Program-made: the position numbers and the translations under genes | The notes under the pieces: model-generated | Databases searched by the model: none | What the model was told of the DNA's origin: nothing | What the model saw: the letters and a program-made list of their open reading frames with translations, nothing else | Part shown: positions 1 to 58,173 of the stretch, in pieces | Layout of the letters: each line of letters starts with the position of its first letter | How positions within the stretch are numbered: position 1 is the stretch's first letter | IMG/VR virus record: IMGVR_UViG_3300013307_000671 | Span: 1 to 64,000 of that record | DNA: 64,000 bases | Reading direction: 5' to 3' (one strand) | DNA from: a virus

Positions 1-579
1 TCTTATCTGAAAACCAATGCGGTTTCTGATTTGGTGATTTCTAAAAATCTGTCTTTTGTAAAGACCAGTGGAAACATCAAGCAGCATAAGAAAACGAAAC
101 AGAAGTTTTACCAGATTCCCTTTGGTCGTTTATTAAATCTACTTGAAGAGAAAGCGATAAAGTATGGTATTGACGTGGTGAATATAGATGAAAGCTATAC
201 ATCGAAGACAAGCAGCCTGACGGCTGATGTGAATAAAGTAAAACAAATAGCTTTGAGAAAAGAGCCGATTACGCCTGCTGAACTGAATGGTGTTCGTGGT
301 GTAAAGAAAGGGAAAATAACGAGAGGGTTGTTCCGGGACAGCGTGTTGAACACCGTGATAAATGCAGATATCAATGCGGCGGTGAATCATGTTAAGGTAG
401 CTTTTCCGGGAGTGATTTGTGGCAAAACGCTGTTAGAAAACAGGTTAAAGCTAAATAATCCTCAGAAAATAAAAAGTGCTAACGAGTTTTCTTTCATTGT
501 GAAGGGGAATAGTGCTAGCAGGAAAAAAGAGGTTGATGTTAGTTCACAACCTGCTTTATACGTTCATGATCAGGTTTGA
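1..579 (+). CDS. tnpB: TnpB-type RNA-guided nuclease, C-terminal part (5' end outside window)
   Basis: The reading frame is open to the window edge, so the N-terminal half is not seen. The visible part carries the block GIDVVNIDESYTSK and, about 70 residues later, RGLF followed by NADINAAVNHVKVAFP. These match the late RuvC region of IS200/IS605-type TnpB, with the RuvC-III Asp in NADINAA. The Cys-x2-Cys zinc finger usual in TnpB is absent, as in the known subfamily with (D/E)ESYTSK...RGLF...INADVN. TnpB nucleases cut DNA using an omega/reRNA copied from the 3' end of their own gene. A tail of about 60 residues follows RuvC-III. No TnpA is seen here. Family assignment is firm; activity cannot be judged from a partial gene. 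Confidence 0.85.
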   Translation, partial: SYLKTNAVSDLVISKNLSFVKTSGNIKQHKKTKQKFYQIPFGRLLNLLEEKAIKYGIDVVNIDESYTSKTSSLTADVNKVKQIALRKEPITPAELNGVRGVKKGKITRGLFRDSVLNTVINADINAAVNHVKVAFPGVICGKTLLENRLKLNNPQKIKSANEFSFIVKGNSASRKKEVDVSSQPALYVHDQV

Positions 580-1705: not shown

Positions 1706-1840
1706 TGGTGGTTTTTGCTGGACTCGAACCAGCGACCTCTGGCCTAAGATCGAATCGTTGTCATTTGACCAGCCGGAGCTGTCTACCGAAGTAGAAACGA
1801 TCTTTTGGCGCTCGCGCTCTACCAACTGAGCTAAAAAACC
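1706..1840 (-). ncRNA. tRNA-like RNA A: tRNA ends with a four-way junction in place of the anticodon arm
   Basis: The ends are a good tRNA: acceptor GGTTTTT/AAAAACC, D-arm GCTCAGTTGGTAGAGC, T-arm GCTGGTTCGAGTCCAGC and CCA. The length is 135 nt instead of 76. Between D- and T-arms no normal anticodon arm can be formed. Instead ATCGTT pairs with AACGAT and encloses three hairpins with no unpaired bases between them: TCTAC-TTCG-GTAGA, CAGC-TCCG-GCTG and GTC-AAAT-GAC. Two of the three loops are ultra-stable UNCG tetraloops. It may be an intron-bearing tRNA, a tRNA decoy or a stable RNA of T4 RNA C/D type; the structure is seen, the role is not known. Confidence 0.6.
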
Positions 1841-1847
1841 ATTTTAT

Positions 1848-1927
1848 TGGTTGGAGAGGAAGGATTCGAACCTTCAATGACTGCCGCCACTCCTCTCGGA
1901 GATGTCTACCCCTTCCATCACTCTCCA
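1848..1927 (-). ncRNA. tRNA-like RNA B: anticodon arm replaced by a GNRA-capped hairpin
   Basis: Acceptor TGGAGAG/CTCTCCA, D-arm GATG...CATC, T-arm GAAGGTTCGAATCCTTC and CCA are intact, and the length is 80 nt. The segment where the anticodon arm should be gives only CTCC-GAGA-GGAG, a 4-bp stem with a GAGA tetraloop. It leaves no 7-nt loop with U33. It is therefore either a degenerate tRNA or a deliberately anticodon-less tRNA mimic. It sits 7 nt upstream of tRNA-like RNA A in the same transcript. Confidence 0.5.
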
Positions 1928-1930
1928 ATT

Positions 1931-2153
1931 TGGTGTCCCCTGTTGGATTCGAACCAACGCGCATTGCTATTGAGATAACACCTTCTTTACTCGACCACGG
2001 AAACTTCCCGCCAAGGCTCTGTCATTGAGCTAAAGGTTTCCTACCGGAACCTTATCAGACTTTAACTGATACGCATCGATTAACGTAAATATCTTTTTAT
2101 CTCGCAACCACTGTCAACCACAGCCTTGGCTCTACCACTGAGCTAAGGGAGAC
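1931..2153 (-). ncRNA. tRNA-like RNA C: split tRNA halves around long-range stems
   Basis: The 3' end has T-arm GTTGGTTCGAATCCAAC, acceptor strand AGGGGAC, A and CCA. A compatible 5' half (GTCTCCCT, D-arm GCTCAGTGGTAGAGC) lies about 180 nt upstream. In between are a 9-bp inverted repeat (GCCAAGGCT/AGCCTTGGC at 2122-2130 and 2010-2018), a second D-arm-like sequence at 2018-2036, and a 6-bp hairpin with a 7-nt loop (TATCAG/CTGATA). Another inverted repeat, ACCGGAAC/GTTCCGGT, joins 2160-2167 to 2043-2050. Whether this is one RNA or decayed tRNAs cannot be told by eye. Confidence 0.4.
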
Positions 2154-2154
2154 A

Positions 2155-2290
2155 TTAATGTTCCGGTTACTGGCGTCCGAAAGTGATTCTCTTTAACAGG
2201 GTTCAACGCCCGAAAGCTCCACCCATTAAAGAAACCTCTATTTATTTCTGGCGCATCTTCGCAAGATGTAGCCATCGTAAATATATCACA
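2155..2290 (-). ncRNA. Structured intergenic RNA candidate with possible pseudoknot
   Basis: No reading frame is present. A strong hairpin spans 2249-2274 (TGGC...CATCTT-GCG-AAGATG...GCCA). GGCGT at 2172-2176 can pair with ACGCC at 2206-2210, while CTTTAA at 2191-2196, between them, can pair with TTAAAG at 2226-2231, which would make an H-type pseudoknot. A competing GGG-TTCAACG-CCC hairpin exists. Transcription would come from the upstream tRNA promoters. Confidence 0.3.
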
Positions 2291-3397: not shown

Positions 3398-3946
3398 TTA
3401 CGATAATGACGCTAAGATATCACCATTACTGACACGAAATCGTTCCAGAAATGTTTTGGTAGATAACGCAACCACATCAGGAATTGCCTCACCTTTATAA
3501 AACAACTCACGGACTTTTGTGCTGCTGATAACATCCATGCCTTCAACGTTAACCTCAACGATGAAATCTTCTTTCCACTCAGGGAACAAGTTAAGATAGA
3601 AAGTGCTCTCATCACCCGACTTGCGACAGCCTGTAATAAATGTATCAGCTTCCTGCGAAACCAAACGCTTAACTTCATCAACCCACGCCTGATCGCTTTC
3701 AAAATCATTCAGAGGCAGAATATCAACAGTAATATCTCGCCCCGTTTCCTCTTTTAATCCAGCAATCACACCTTCCACCATCTCCCGACGCTCTCCAAAA
3801 GAAAACGGGTTTTTACGACTGCGCTCAGTATTCGCACTGCCGATCAGAATCAATACTTTATCACCTTTTTCTAAGGCATGTTTCATTACACTCGCGTGTC
3901 CAAAGTGTGGAATCTGAAAACGACCAATATACACATATAAGCTCAT
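3398..3946 (-). CDS. NadM/NadR-like nucleotidylyltransferase (probable NMN adenylyltransferase)
   Basis: The 182-residue protein begins YVYIGRFQIPHFGHASVMKHAL, the GxFxPxHxGH nucleotide-binding motif of cytidylyl/adenylyltransferases. Near its end it has ISSTKVRELF, the second conserved motif. The internal KNPFSFGERREMV block matches NMN adenylyltransferases of NadM/NadR type, which make NAD from NMN and ATP. No C-terminal Nudix domain is present, so it is a single-domain form. The start follows AAGGATAGAGAA; an upstream in-frame ATG lacks such a site. It neighbours a 5'-nucleotidase, which suits pyridine-nucleotide salvage, but substrate specificity is inferred. Confidence 0.8.
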   Translation of the reverse strand: MSLYVYIGRFQIPHFGHASVMKHALEKGDKVLILIGSANTERSRKNPFSFGERREMVEGVIAGLKEETGRDITVDILPLNDFESDQAWVDEVKRLVSQEADTFITGCRKSGDESTFYLNLFPEWKEDFIVEVNVEGMDVISSTKVRELFYKGEAIPDVVALSTKTFLERFRVSNGDILASLS

Positions 3947-3980
3947 TTCTCTATCCTTATCCATTCGATTTAATAACGTT

Positions 3981-4010
3981 ATTATACCTTAAATCTATGA
4001 TCAGAGACAA
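3981..4010 (-). promoter_or_regulatory. Promoter of the nucleotidylyltransferase gene
   Basis: TTGTCT and TATAAT lie 18 bp apart on the minus strand, about 35 nt before the start codon. Confidence 0.55.
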
Positions 4011-4036
4011 CATTTTAATGTTTTATAAACAAAAAA

Positions 4037-4050
4037 CCACCCGAAGGTGG
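4037..4050 (-). terminator. Terminator after the 5'-nucleotidase gene
   Basis: The hairpin CCACC-CGAA-GGTGG is followed by a T-run on the minus strand. It is the CCGAAGG-type hairpin reused throughout the window. Confidence 0.8.
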
Positions 4051-4069
4051 CTTGTCAGATTTTTACTTA

Positions 4070-5164
4070 TTAGGCTCGCGCCCGAAGCTGCTCTACTGCC
4101 CCGTTCAGAGACATATCACCGGAAGTAAAGTCATTGAAGACCAAACCTGCCAGAACATGAGATACGTTATTACGTGCGCCATCCACATGAACCAAAGAAT
4201 CCTCAAGGAACAGGTTAATATGGCTTTCATCAAGCATAGACAGCGCAATATGCTTAGGCCGACCATCAGCGAAGTCCGCACGGGTCACCTGAATGTTATG
4301 ATGCGCCATTGTCTTAACAATACGCATAGAAGCCGCACCACCGCGAGCCGTTAAAATCGTTGTCGCTAATGGGATATCATTTGCCTTGATTTCGTTTGCC
4401 AGCATCTTCTTATTGAAATATGCCACAACACGACTCAGTTTCTGAACCACAACACCTAATGGGCCAAGCTCCATAGGGGTATGACGATGTTTAATCTCAT
4501 TGAGACGGAACTCTTCCAAAGGCTCCAGGCCTTTAATCTGCTTTGCTGCCTGATAAACCATCTCTGAGGTAGGATCGACAATCACACCATCAAAGTCACA
4601 GATAAAGTTGATTTTATTATCGCGGTTGTTGAACATCTTCATGTTCTGGATTTCACTGATATTCTGAATGTGAACTGCCGCAACGCCACGCTTATGATAT
4701 TCCTTCGCTGAAGCATCAGACGAGGTAAACACAACATCAGCGCCTTGCATCTTATGAGAAGATGCCTGCTCAAGCCCACCCGTCCATGAGATATAGTCTG
4801 GAACGAAATCATTCACTTCATCTAACAGGTAATGATCAATACTGTTCATCAGGGTAATCGCACCCGCATGGTTAGTGTCAAAACGTGCGCTCATGCCAAA
4901 ACGGAACTTAGCCACATCACATGGAACCTTACGGCTATTACGCAGCTTGATCAGGGAAATATAAAAACCAAGTGCCGGGCCGGGCTTAAATACTTTACCC
5001 TCAGCATTCATCTGAGCAAAATAATCATTATATGCTGACAGACGATCTTCTTCCGAATGCGACTCAAATACTGCTTCCGCTTCCTTCATGTCAAACAGCG
5101 CACCCGCCGTAAAACCAAATGTCAGAACAGTATCGCTATCATTAATATTCATTATATTCACCAT
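4070..5164 (-). CDS. Cytosolic 5'-nucleotidase (NT5C1/cN-I type, PF06189-like)
   Basis: The 364-residue protein has ALFDMKEAEAVF near residue 15, GPALGFYISLIKLRN near 62, FGMSARFDTNHAGAITLMNSIDHY near 86 and SWTGGL, in the order seen in the cN-I 5'-nucleotidase family. A HAD-type motif FICDFDGVIVDPT follows near residue 188, with ILTARGG and FLEDSLVHV later. These enzymes remove 5' phosphate from nucleoside monophosphates in the cytoplasm. Its place next to a likely NMN adenylyltransferase suggests NMN or AMP as substrate, which is inference. Either of two nearby ATGs could be the start; no strong ribosome site distinguishes them. Confidence 0.8.
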   Translation of the reverse strand: MVNIMNINDSDTVLTFGFTAGALFDMKEAEAVFESHSEEDRLSAYNDYFAQMNAEGKVFKPGPALGFYISLIKLRNSRKVPCDVAKFRFGMSARFDTNHAGAITLMNSIDHYLLDEVNDFVPDYISWTGGLEQASSHKMQGADVVFTSSDASAKEYHKRGVAAVHIQNISEIQNMKMFNNRDNKINFICDFDGVIVDPTSEMVYQAAKQIKGLEPLEEFRLNEIKHRHTPMELGPLGVVVQKLSRVVAYFNKKMLANEIKANDIPLATTILTARGGAASMRIVKTMAHHNIQVTRADFADGRPKHIALSMLDESHINLFLEDSLVHVDGARNNVSHVLAGLVFNDFTSGDMSLNGAVEQLRARA

Positions 5165-5270: not shown

Positions 5271-6398
5271 TTAAAACTTAACGATTGAAATCCAGTTTGC
5301 ATCATTTACAGCGGTATCTTTACCAGCCGGAACACGAGAAGCTTCTTTCAGCCAACCATCTTTACCAATCGCATAGCTGCTGATATAACCGCTTTTCTCG
5401 CCTGTGGTAATCAGGAACTTACCTTCAGGATCAATCGCAATCCCACGAGGCTGTTTCTCAGTTTTCCACACGTTAATCAGGGTCAGCTTGCCTGTCGCCT
5501 TATCAACTTTATAACCCGCTACAGTGCTACTGGTGCGCTCTGCAACATACAGCCATTTACCATTAGGCGTAATTTTCAGATCAGATGCCCAAATACGTGG
5601 AGTGGGATCGCTATAACCAGCCGGACGCTCTTTACCATGCTCCAGTTTATAACTTTCTGCTACAGGTGAGGCAAACTCAGAAACTTTTACCAGTGAGCCA
5701 TCAGCTTTGCGCTCAAACTGCGTCACAATACCACCCATCTCACCAATATTATAGACGAAACGGTTATCAGGAGAAATCACGGAATGACGAGGGCCATTAT
5801 CTTTCGATGTCTCCGCAAAGCCATTGCCGATAGGTGAAATCTTACCATCTTTGCTCAGGTTTAGCTGCAGAACCTTATCTGCGCCAAGATTGCCCACATA
5901 CAGTGATTTGTTAGTGTTGTCCACAATAACGGAATGCGCATGAGGGCCAGTATGATAAACATCTACAGGCTTCTCTGACAGCTTCAGGCCATTAATTGCA
6001 TAGCTTTCCACCACGTCTTTATCGTATGACGCGCCCAGCAGATACTTACCAGATTTATCCAGAGCAATATAAGCATAGGAAGTATCAATCGGATTTACCG
6101 TTTTATTCGATACAGAACCTGTCTTAGCATCGATATCCCATGAAACAATACTGTAAGGCTTTTGGCGAACAGCCGCATAAAGATGCTTTTTATCAGGGCT
6201 GACTACTGTAGGCATTGCTTTTTTACCCGCGTCAATCTCATCAACCAGAGACAGCGATCCGCTTTTTTCATTCAGAGTGTAATGCGAGATATGACCTGAA
6301 TCAGAGTTTGATACATATACAGAAGTCTGAGCATGAGAGGCAAAACTCAGTGGCAGCAACAGTAGGACTGACTTGATTAACATATTCTTCGACTTCAT
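5271..6398 (-). CDS. Exported 7-bladed beta-propeller protein (6-phosphogluconolactonase/YncE-like)
   Basis: The 375-residue protein starts with a signal peptide (MKSKNML, a hydrophobic stretch, then ASHA just before QTSVYVSN), so it should be exported. The mature part is made of repeated blades such as SPDKKHLYAAVR, DKSGKYLLGA, SPDNRFVYNIGEMGG, TPNGKWLYVAERTSSTVAGY and DPEGKFLITTGEKSG. These are characteristic of the lactonase beta-propeller family (Pgl/YbhE, PF10282). Cytoplasmic Pgl hydrolyses 6-phosphogluconolactone; an exported version more likely acts on another ligand. It has its own promoter and terminator. It is probably acquired from a bacterium. Confidence 0.85.
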   Translation of the reverse strand: MKSKNMLIKSVLLLLPLSFASHAQTSVYVSNSDSGHISHYTLNEKSGSLSLVDEIDAGKKAMPTVVSPDKKHLYAAVRQKPYSIVSWDIDAKTGSVSNKTVNPIDTSYAYIALDKSGKYLLGASYDKDVVESYAINGLKLSEKPVDVYHTGPHAHSVIVDNTNKSLYVGNLGADKVLQLNLSKDGKISPIGNGFAETSKDNGPRHSVISPDNRFVYNIGEMGGIVTQFERKADGSLVKVSEFASPVAESYKLEHGKERPAGYSDPTPRIWASDLKITPNGKWLYVAERTSSTVAGYKVDKATGKLTLINVWKTEKQPRGIAIDPEGKFLITTGEKSGYISSYAIGKDGWLKEASRVPAGKDTAVNDANWISIVKF

Positions 6399-56143: not shown

Positions 56144-57442
56144 TTAATCATACGCATAACTATATCCGTCAAAACGATACAGCATTACGCAGTTCTTCCA
56201 GCCTATTCCTTCCACTCTCCCCTGTTTTACTTTTATATTGAAGATTCCTCTCGATCTTACCGATACCTTTCCTTTATATACTCCTTTTTTCTTCCCTTTC
56301 AATACTACTGCCTTAACCATGTCTCCCGTTTTAAATCCTCTCACTATCTTAGGGCCTTTCGCTTTTCCTCGCGGAAAACCATATTTATCAACTAAACACA
56401 TTTGCCTGCTATTTCTTCTTTCCTTCTTAATCAGCAATGGCCTTAACTTAGATGAAATATATACCTTCGCTCCCGTTGTGCCTGCGCATAATGCATCGAC
56501 ATAATGCTCCTTAGCGTAGCCCTGAGACACCCGGTTATACTTAGTCTCTGCGCCCGTTCCCGTCAGAACAGGCACCTTTAAACCTGACAGCTCTTTGATG
56601 ATTTGTTTGCGACTTATATTGACCGCTGCAGCATCTTTTAACGGAGTCTTTAACTGTGCCTTTATCTTTTTTAATAAAGGCTGGTTATCCTTCAGAAACT
56701 CCTCAATGGACATATTATCTTTCTTCTCATTACACACCCTGCAGGATAACACCAGATTGCTTATTCTGTTGCTTCCGCCTCTGCTACGTGGGATAACATG
56801 CTCTTTTTCAAATGGCACATTCTTGGCCTCACAATAGACGCAGCTATAGTGATATTTCTCAAGCAAATATGCTTTCACTTCGTAATCAAACAGCGTGCCA
56901 CGCTGATACTCAATTCCTTCAACTGCAGCGCTTTCCATCTTCTGCATATCAAACTTAACCGATTCTACCGTGATAAAACCCACAGGAGCCAGTCTAATGA
57001 AACGCTTAGACCATTCAGTTATGTTATCTACACGACTTTGAACGGATGGCGCTAACCATCCTTTATGCTTACTTCTTACGCGGTTAAGAAAACGTGGTGA
57101 TCTGTAGCGGGTTTTACGGTTTCTCCTCGACCTTCTCACCATACGACGACTATCTAAGTTGCCTTTTATTTCCTGCCCACGGTGAGTTAACACTGCCCCG
57201 AATATCGCAGACAGCCTGTTTTTACCATGTAAAACTAATCCTATTCCTGTTTGCTTTGAACCCGGATCAAACTTGAGTTCAACAGGCTGTTTGTATCCAT
57301 CTGAACGCTGAGTTAACTGTATAGTAAAAGGGTAGAAGCGTTTAACGACAGCTTTTTTGCTATGCAATAGCTGTCTTGCCCTTGCCGGATGGCAGGGCAT
57401 CAACGTCTTACCTGTTTGACTTAATACAAAAACTCTATTCAA
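56144..57442 (-). CDS. iscB: IscB: omegaRNA-guided HNH/RuvC nuclease (432 aa)
   Basis: All IscB domains are present in order. A PLMP-like N-terminus (GKTLMPCHPARARQLL, about 11-26) is followed by RuvC-I ELKFDPGSKQTGIGLVL with D59 and an Arg-rich bridge helix (RRMVRRSRRNRKTRYRSPRF, 99-118). RuvC-II GFITVES follows with E160, then an HNH domain with CVYC (201-204), EHVIPRSRGG (H215), N229 and CRVC (234-237), and RuvC-III KEHYVDALCAGT with H313 and D316. IscB, the ancestor of Cas9, cuts DNA matched by a guide in an omegaRNA encoded just upstream. The start is TTG after AAAGGA. All catalytic residues look intact. No TnpA transposase is seen nearby. Confidence 0.95.
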   Translation of the reverse strand: MNRVFVLSQTGKTLMPCHPARARQLLHSKKAVVKRFYPFTIQLTQRSDGYKQPVELKFDPGSKQTGIGLVLHGKNRLSAIFGAVLTHRGQEIKGNLDSRRMVRRSRRNRKTRYRSPRFLNRVRSKHKGWLAPSVQSRVDNITEWSKRFIRLAPVGFITVESVKFDMQKMESAAVEGIEYQRGTLFDYEVKAYLLEKYHYSCVYCEAKNVPFEKEHVIPRSRGGSNRISNLVLSCRVCNEKKDNMSIEEFLKDNQPLLKKIKAQLKTPLKDAAAVNISRKQIIKELSGLKVPVLTGTGAETKYNRVSQGYAKEHYVDALCAGTTGAKVYISSKLRPLLIKKERRNSRQMCLVDKYGFPRGKAKGPKIVRGFKTGDMVKAVVLKGKKKGVYKGKVSVRSRGIFNIKVKQGRVEGIGWKNCVMLYRFDGYSYAYD

Positions 57443-57832
57443 TTGTACTGTTCCTTTATTACTTCATTATTATTTATAAATAAGTTACCTTATTATCTTT
57501 TATGAAAAACGATGTTTTTCATAAAGTAAGCTCTCCTCGCCAAAGTTAAAAAACATTTCATGTAATACACACTGTTTTCTCCCCGTGAAAACTGTTTAAT
57601 GTATTACGACAGTAATGAAAATGGGTTTATCATTTTCGATGCGTAGAACTGGAGAAGCATCCTACGGTGTCATCTGTTTTTTAACGTAGCCTGTAAAACC
57701 AAAGTTCTACAGGCTGAGGCTGGTCAGTTAATCCAAGTCGGAGACTTGCTCAGAAAAACCAGATGGTTTTTCTGTTTCGAAAACGATGAATCCGTTTTCA
57801 TTAACAAGCCTCGCCCGACAGGGCGGGGTTAC
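57443..57832 (-). ncRNA. Probable IscB omegaRNA (about 390 nt, many hairpins)
   Basis: The 386 bases between iscB and the upstream gene have no ORF but many perfect stems, read on the minus strand. They include CCCGCCC/GGGCGAGG, GAAAACG/CGTTTTC, AGAAAAACC/GGTTTTTCT, CAAGTC/GACTTG, AGCCTGTA/TACAGGCT, GAAAATG/CATTTTC, GTAATACA/TGTATTAC and TATGAAAAAC/GTTTTTCATA. IscB omegaRNAs are encoded exactly here, with the guide at the 5' end. That puts the guide in the last codons of the gene ending at 57829, right before TAACCCCGCCC. Confidence 0.85.
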
Positions 57833-58173
57833 TGACGGTAAGGAGCATCAATAACGTCAATGCCATGTGCTTTAAAATTTTCTTTATGACGTTCAAGCGT
57901 CCGAGCTACCACTTTATCATCACTGGAGTGAAGATAAATCTTTTTCAGGTTTTTGAACTTATCAAGACGATAGTTAATCCGACCCATAATGTGCTCACCT
58001 GTAATCGAAGGATGCCCTAAGAAGTTATCCAGGTAAATAATCTCAACGGTATCCTCGTTCTCAATAACCAGCTTACGCGCAAGACGCGCATCAGACTCAC
58101 TCACCACACCATCGACATTATCCAGATAATGCTCAGCTTTACGCATATCATCAATCCAAAGACGCTTAATCAT
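57829..58173 (-). CDS. Receiver-like (cREC-type) protein, paralogue 1 (114 aa)
   Basis: RLWIDDMRK at the start, IIYLDNFLGHPSITGEHIMGRINYRL in the middle and KIYLHSSDDKVVARTLERHKE after it give the D-D...D...S order of a receiver-type Rossmann fold. It resembles the 'cyclic-phosphate processing receiver' (cREC) group with LWxDD and LDxxLG motifs. The stop codon abuts the IscB omegaRNA, and the last codons form the presumed guide. A paralogue is encoded next door. Confidence 0.65.
   Translation of the reverse strand: MIKRLWIDDMRKAEHYLDNVDGVVSESDARLARKLVIENEDTVEIIYLDNFLGHPSITGEHIMGRINYRLDKFKNLKKIYLHSSDDKVVARTLERHKENFKAHGIDVIDAPYRQ

Follow-up and report, generated by a model that had tools for sequence, protein, structure and literature searches.

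A conserved structured module in place of the anticodon arm of a tRNA-like phage RNA

In the engineered tRNA scaffold, a laboratory construct, the acceptor, D and T arms of a tRNA are kept and a foreign structured RNA of choice takes the position of the anticodon arm (PMC3753655). Among natural RNAs, the nearest analogues are the species 1 and 2 RNAs of phage T4 (rnaC and rnaD; bands C and D), small stable RNAs of 119-139 nt encoded beside the tRNA cluster, of which rnaC has a T arm. The upper half of a tRNA is also present in tmRNA, whose anticodon is replaced by other RNA, and the Racrs are likewise small phage RNAs (PMC10651486). The gene described here lies in a stretch of 64,000 nucleotides (the window) taken from a virus record of 134,908 bases. 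It shares the architecture of the engineered scaffold, but it apparently evolved and carries one conserved cargo. Unlike tmRNA, it has no tag reading frame and no pseudoknots, its discriminator is not conserved, its acceptor is not that of alanyl-tRNA, and neither ARAGORN nor Rfam made a tmRNA call. One of its hairpins (H1) resembles the handle stem of Cas12a; unlike the Racrs, however, the RNA is not a solitary repeat but possesses a tRNA body and two further hairpins. The two T4 RNAs lack the module, and a search of L210 and of the whole T4 record with R2, our covariance model, matched ordinary tRNAs only. The first-pass annotation had compared the RNA with T4 species C and D. As to its kind, a stable tRNA-like RNA by a tRNA cluster, this comparison holds, while from the sequences the RNAs do not appear to be homologous.

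Structure of the RNA encoded in the window

The gene is located on the minus strand (1840..1706), comprises 135 nt including CCA and has a complete tRNA body. Its elements are as follows (all on the minus strand):

1706-1840: whole tRNA-scaffolded RNA gene; 47.2 bits with the Rfam tRNA model, 149.9 bits with R2 (by construction)
1834-1840: acceptor 5' strand GGUUUUU, partner 1710-1716; all acceptor pairs change on both sides in homologues
1816-1831: D arm GCUC-AGUUGGUA-GAGC (sequence; alignment with RNAalifold)
1803-1814: 5' linker CGAGCGCCAAAA, replacing the anticodon stem (alignment A2, RNAalifold)
1798-1802: outer stem 5' strand GAUCG, partner 1748-1752; five standard types of the outer pair in 13 sequences
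1796-1797: invariant junction UU (alignment)
1782-1795: hairpin H1, UCUAC-UUCG-GUAGA; the stem is the same in all 13 sequences, whereas the loop varies
1770-1781: hairpin H2, CAGC-UCCG-GCUG; covaries, three pairs changed on both sides
1760-1769: hairpin H3, GUC-AAAU-GAC; covaries, one pair changed on both sides
1753-1759: near-invariant AACGAYY, in which AA could pair with UU and CGAYY could bulge out; alternative partner for the 5' AUCG
1748-1752: outer stem 3' strand CGAUC; covariation of the outer pair
1739-1747: 3' linker UUAGGCCAG (alignment A2)
1717-1733: T arm GCUGG-UUCGAGU-CCAGC (Rfam); T-stem pairs covary
1706-1716: acceptor 3' strand AAAAACC, discriminator A and encoded CCA (sequence)

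The three tRNA arms (GGUUUUU/AAAAACC, GCUC/GAGC and GCUGG/CCAGC) and, at the position of the anticodon, the 48-nt unit AUCGUU...AACGAU with its UUCG, UCCG and AAAU hairpins were thus found as the first-pass annotation had described them. With Rfam, the RNA was recognized as a tRNA with a lower score than the ordinary neighbouring tRNAs (57 to 73 bits), and a stretch of 74 nt at the position of the anticodon arm was left unmodelled. ARAGORN made no call for the RNA at 1840..1706. The flanks of the module do not form a normal anticodon stem: according to alignment A2 and RNAalifold, the linkers have conserved A and G residues, both being found in the 5' linker, whose GC forms a short pairing with the GC of the 3' linker. 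Compared to shuffled sequences, the fold of the window RNA was only modestly better (z -2.5). It is conservation, more than the folding of a single sequence, that is decisive for the predicted structure.

Conservation and covariation of the family

There is hardly any doubt that an RNA family with a conserved tRNA-scaffolded module exists. We detected 13 distinct homologues belonging to at least seven lineages of phages or phage-plasmids. Escherichia phage Jgk1 and Pseudomonas phage Littlefix were shown by BLAST to have the insert as well. More members came from pattern scans of 2.9 million viral contigs and, when plasmids and E. coli genomes were searched with BLAST, from phage-plasmids whose hosts are E. 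coli, E. albertii and Salmonella. The copies on the phage-plasmids were annotated at NCBI as tRNA-OTHER, or the gene was left out; to annotation pipelines, the RNA is hidden under this label or missed altogether. A tRNA-OTHER of Sinorhizobium phage Phosso was rejected as a member, being a tRNA of ordinary size. With R2, one full copy was found in each of 14 carrier records, always together with the tRNA body. While the R2 scores of members are high by construction, the next best matches were ordinary tRNAs with no more than 54 bits. Patterns devoid of H1, of the outer stem plus closing motif, or of the tRNA did not retrieve any true member lacking these elements, and the first two added no divergent members. 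Hence, the tRNA and the elements of the module always travel together. A looser pattern gave repeated look-alikes and no members among the matches listed.

The RNA is rare. It was found in six of 5,426 E. coli genomes, 11 of 72,556 plasmids and three of 50,697 phage records. On bacterial and archaeal chromosomes (one genome for each of 84,980 species), the 50 matches to a single fixed pattern were due to chance, none of them proving on inspection to be a true member, and a covariance search of one Pseudomonas genome did not result in a match. In the window and its relative L026, the module is identical, the surrounding region being 92% identical. When three members were scanned against Rfam 15, only the tRNA model reached its gathering score. 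A literature search did not reveal any description of such an RNA, though absence from the literature and from Rfam is no proof that it is undescribed. The family appears to be previously unlisted, present in Rfam 15 only as a poor tRNA (three members scanned).

The alignment A2 contains the 13 distinct sequences, that of the window virus included. RNAalifold predicted 36 pairs, of which 19 had changed on both sides. Within the module (outer stem with the second CGAU, UU/AA, H1, H2 and H3), 19 pairs were kept in 100% of 242 cells, five of them having changed on both sides, and three of its helices covary. The covariation score of the module (0.237) was reached in none of 500 shuffles (mean 0.057), with the reservation that related sequences may exceed such shuffles even without structure. 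Sliding of the partners by 1 to 3 columns reduced the pairing of the module to 25-55%. Since the H1 stem (UCUAC/GUAGA) is wholly invariant, like AUCGUU and CAACGA, covariation is uninformative on H1 itself. Of the four stems for which covariation analysis had been suggested, the outer stem, H2 and H3 gave a positive result. The proposal that this is not a decayed tRNA thereby withstood the check set for it in the first-pass annotation.

The closing stem of the module needs a closer look, as the 5' AUCG has two possible CGAU partners. A four-way junction enclosed seamlessly by a 6-bp stem had been proposed from the window sequence. The junction as such is retained in our model, but the 6-bp register (AUCGUU/AACGAU) is without variation, apart from a single disruption in phage Jgk1. 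By contrast, pairing of AUCG with the second CGAU is supported by the outermost pair, which occurs as G-C, C-G, U-A, A-U and G-U among the 13 sequences. We therefore favour the second CGAU as the predicted partner, in which case the junction could nevertheless be seamless if closed by UU/AA, with the five nucleotides CGAYY bulged out. As the two registers differ little in computed energy, the RNA may switch between them.

Carriers, allelic exchange and genomic setting

Besides the virus record of the window, the carriers comprise a relative 259 kb in size, three phages resembling Schitoviridae, IncFIB and IncY phage-plasmids of Escherichia and Salmonella, for which names such as SSU5-like or P1-like would rest on replicon type, a lambdoid prophage of 48 kb that is related to phages of Yersinia, a temperate phage of 39 kb whose repressor is cI-like, and another two contigs. 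As a rule, these unrelated phages have the RNA gene inside or close to a cluster of tRNA genes, or in the early region. A translation-related role is conceivable because, in most lytic carriers, the RNA lies amid true tRNA genes. The comparison of the proteins of ten carriers revealed groups with little in common; no protein was shared by all of them, the most widespread ones being found in four of the ten. These nearest candidates for a protein partner encoded by the phages look like generic phage proteins and were discarded.

The IncFIB phage-plasmids offer a direct comparison with an ordinary tRNA. In the slot following tRNA-Asn, one sister plasmid contains a tRNA-Thr(UGU) gene while others contain the module RNA. 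A query with this locus matched 541 E. coli genomes, six of which harbour the module. The acceptor stem of the tRNA-Thr is identical and its T arm nearly identical to that of the module RNA but, in contrast to the latter, it has an ordinary anticodon arm. Given the same slot and the same neighbours, module and anticodon arm behave as interchangeable alleles on one tRNA body, and the sister phage-plasmids with a normal tRNA-Thr at this site are natural controls. If this is true, a natural RNA family exists which is a tRNA with interchangeable cargo, to our knowledge so far a laboratory trick only.

In all 13 members, the 5-bp anticodon stem and the 7-nt anticodon loop are replaced, while acceptor, D and T arms are present with covarying pairs (Rfam RF00005, 47.2 bits in the window). 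The acceptor sequences differ between members, with compensatory changes. Since the discriminator may be A, G, U or C and CCA is encoded only sometimes, the function shared by the members is unlikely to lie in aminoacylation. The variability of acceptor, discriminator and CCA fits better to a scaffold than to an aminoacylated adaptor, as far as can be judged from the sequences. Likewise, the varying discriminator and acceptor sequences argue against a decoy for synthetases, which the first-pass annotation had considered along with nucleases and modification enzymes as possible targets of a decoy.

In two temperate carriers, the position of the gene suggests early expression. In the Yersinia-type lambdoid prophage, the cI side is followed by rexA, rexB, a terminator, a promoter-like site, a boxA/boxB-like hairpin, the RNA and N. 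The RNA gene is thus placed between a pL/nutL-like leader and the N antiterminator gene, directly before the latter. The promoter is a consensus match only, and the boxA-like sequence is our own reading, while the boxB-like hairpin is strong. In the 39-kb phage, the repressor lies upstream of the RNA gene, and genes of the recombination type lie downstream of it. There (L243, 5570-5900), the RNA also has two flanking elements, a long hairpin (UUUUGUUUAGUGGU...ACCACUAAACAAAA) and a degenerate tRNA-like sequence (GCCCCGU...ACGGGGUGCCA). Some 150 nt of further structured sequence, closed by GUUGUGGUG/CACCACAAC, occur just downstream of the RNA in the phage-plasmids L083, L084 and L085.

Possible functions and neighbouring features

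The RNA probably serves the phages as a tool directed at some component of the host and not as a functional tRNA. Compensatory changes preserve its tRNA body, in which the anticodon arm has given way to a conserved module. Cleavage by RNase P and by the 3' processing pathway of tRNAs would release the RNA as a stable species, and the invariant H1 stem together with AACGAYY would form a fixed surface for a host protein or RNA. A partner of the host is assumed since the carriers have no phage protein in common, and an action in trans because the gene next to the RNA differs between lineages. The RNA would then act early in infection as a decoy or inhibitor, counter-defence or host takeover being the most likely purposes. 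That a structured phage RNA on a tRNA chassis shows its module to a host factor and, working in trans, serves as decoy or inhibitor is, as a whole, a good possibility, albeit slightly short of an even one; the function taken alone, a decoy for or an inhibitor of a host factor in use early during infection, is proposed tentatively. More doubtful, yet still possible, is the broader assumption that phages of Gammaproteobacteria evolved a natural tRNA scaffold, with one module on many bodies, as an early trans inhibitor recognized via H1 and AACGAYY by a host protein of defence or control. The RNA provides a testable example of phage tRNA genes outside translation and bears on the question of why phages carry tRNA clusters. 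Mimicry of, or antisense pairing with, E. coli 16S, 23S and 5S rRNA was also considered and discarded: no sense 9-mer was common to them and only one antisense 9-mer was found, which is nothing above chance as 114 of 200 shuffled modules have a 9-mer match.

Other readings start from the tRNA body. Phage tRNAs are known to counter defences that cut tRNAs (PMC11555353; PMC12409363), and with its conserved body the RNA might be a bait or sponge for enzymes attacking tRNAs, such as anticodon nucleases or CCA-modifying toxins, while the module blocks use as a tRNA or traps the enzyme. However, the anticodon loop cut by such nucleases is absent and the constant part is the module, whereas acceptor and discriminator of the bodies differ widely, which renders this reading unlikely. 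A tRNA that regains its function by removal of a small intron, as contemplated in the first-pass annotation, is very improbable. The insertion is indeed located at the usual site of tRNA introns, the outer stem could hold the splice sites and a loop of 7 nt could result in several members (AAAAUUA in the window), but the arms left over in the 13 members agree neither in their stem nor in the length of the loop nor in the anticodon, L009 would keep a loop of 2 nt, and the flanks, which do not form an anticodon arm after excision, differ from the arm of the isogenic tRNA-Thr allele. Decay of a tRNA gene, or a fold by chance, can practically be dismissed, in agreement with the original interpretation: even though the cluster contains other odd tRNA-like sequences and the z score of the single sequence is modest, the structure is conserved and covarying in the 13 members from unrelated phages, with all pair cells kept.

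Starting from the genomic context, the RNA of the Yersinia-type prophage, lying between the promoter/nut-like leader and N, might act in cis as a processing or antitermination signal, for example by cutting nutL from the N mRNA. A cis-acting leader element is nevertheless distinctly unlikely, since in other lineages the RNA lies inside tRNA clusters next to different genes and excision as a tRNA would part it from the downstream transcript. The invariant junction nucleotides and the two AUCG registers look like a switch or pocket, as in an aptamer-like RNA soaking up a small molecule, e.g. a signal nucleotide of a defence system; yet a fully invariant 5-bp stem such as H1 is more typical of protein recognition, and we regard this possibility as decidedly improbable. 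Cas12a repeats have an invariant stem with a variable loop, as does H1, and H1 with the preceding UU (UUUCUAC-N4-GUAGA) corresponds to the conserved part of the Cas12a crRNA handle. V-A Racrs, which are RNA anti-CRISPRs, are known from phage genomes (PMC10651486). Yet, compared to this handle, the pseudoknot positions are changed (upstream A to G, terminal U to C/G) or used in the junction, and H2, H3 and the tRNA body would be left unexplained. The Rfam scan of three members gave no CRISPR match. The hosts identified for the carriers are not known to possess Cas12a. A Racr-like function is thus highly unlikely, and the similarity of H1 to the handle is treated as a resemblance only.

Several other features of the window deserve mention. 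At 1930-2157 (minus strand), a tRNA-like RNA of 228 nt has an outer acceptor (GUCUCCC/GGGGAC) and a T arm, while its inner block is permuted in the order T arm, 3' acceptor AAGGUUCC, 5' acceptor GGAAACCUU and D arm. Its counterpart in L026 has canonical T and D loops in the inner block, where one acceptor pair is C-G instead of U-A. This RNA may be a nested, permuted tRNA. The odd tRNA at 1848-1927 (minus strand), called Pro(AGG) by ARAGORN and scoring 31.8 bits with Rfam, is 86% identical to a tRNA-Ser or tRNA-Undet of the Ackermannviridae Ag3, MK-13 and EspM4VN. Beside the tRNA cluster, a protein with a nucleotidyltransferase fold (3398-5164, minus strand) adjoins a 5'-nucleotidase; the two could serve NAD metabolism against NAD-depleting defences. 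A HEARO (OMEGA) RNA (57526-57836, minus strand; 106 bits) lies beside the gene of an IscB-like protein with RRXRR and HNH domains (56144-57442, minus strand), and the C-terminal part of a TnpB/Cas12f-like protein (31-579, plus strand) is truncated by the start of the window. A seven-bladed, lactonase-type beta-propeller protein with a signal-like start is encoded at 5271-6398 (minus strand), which is unusual for a phage.
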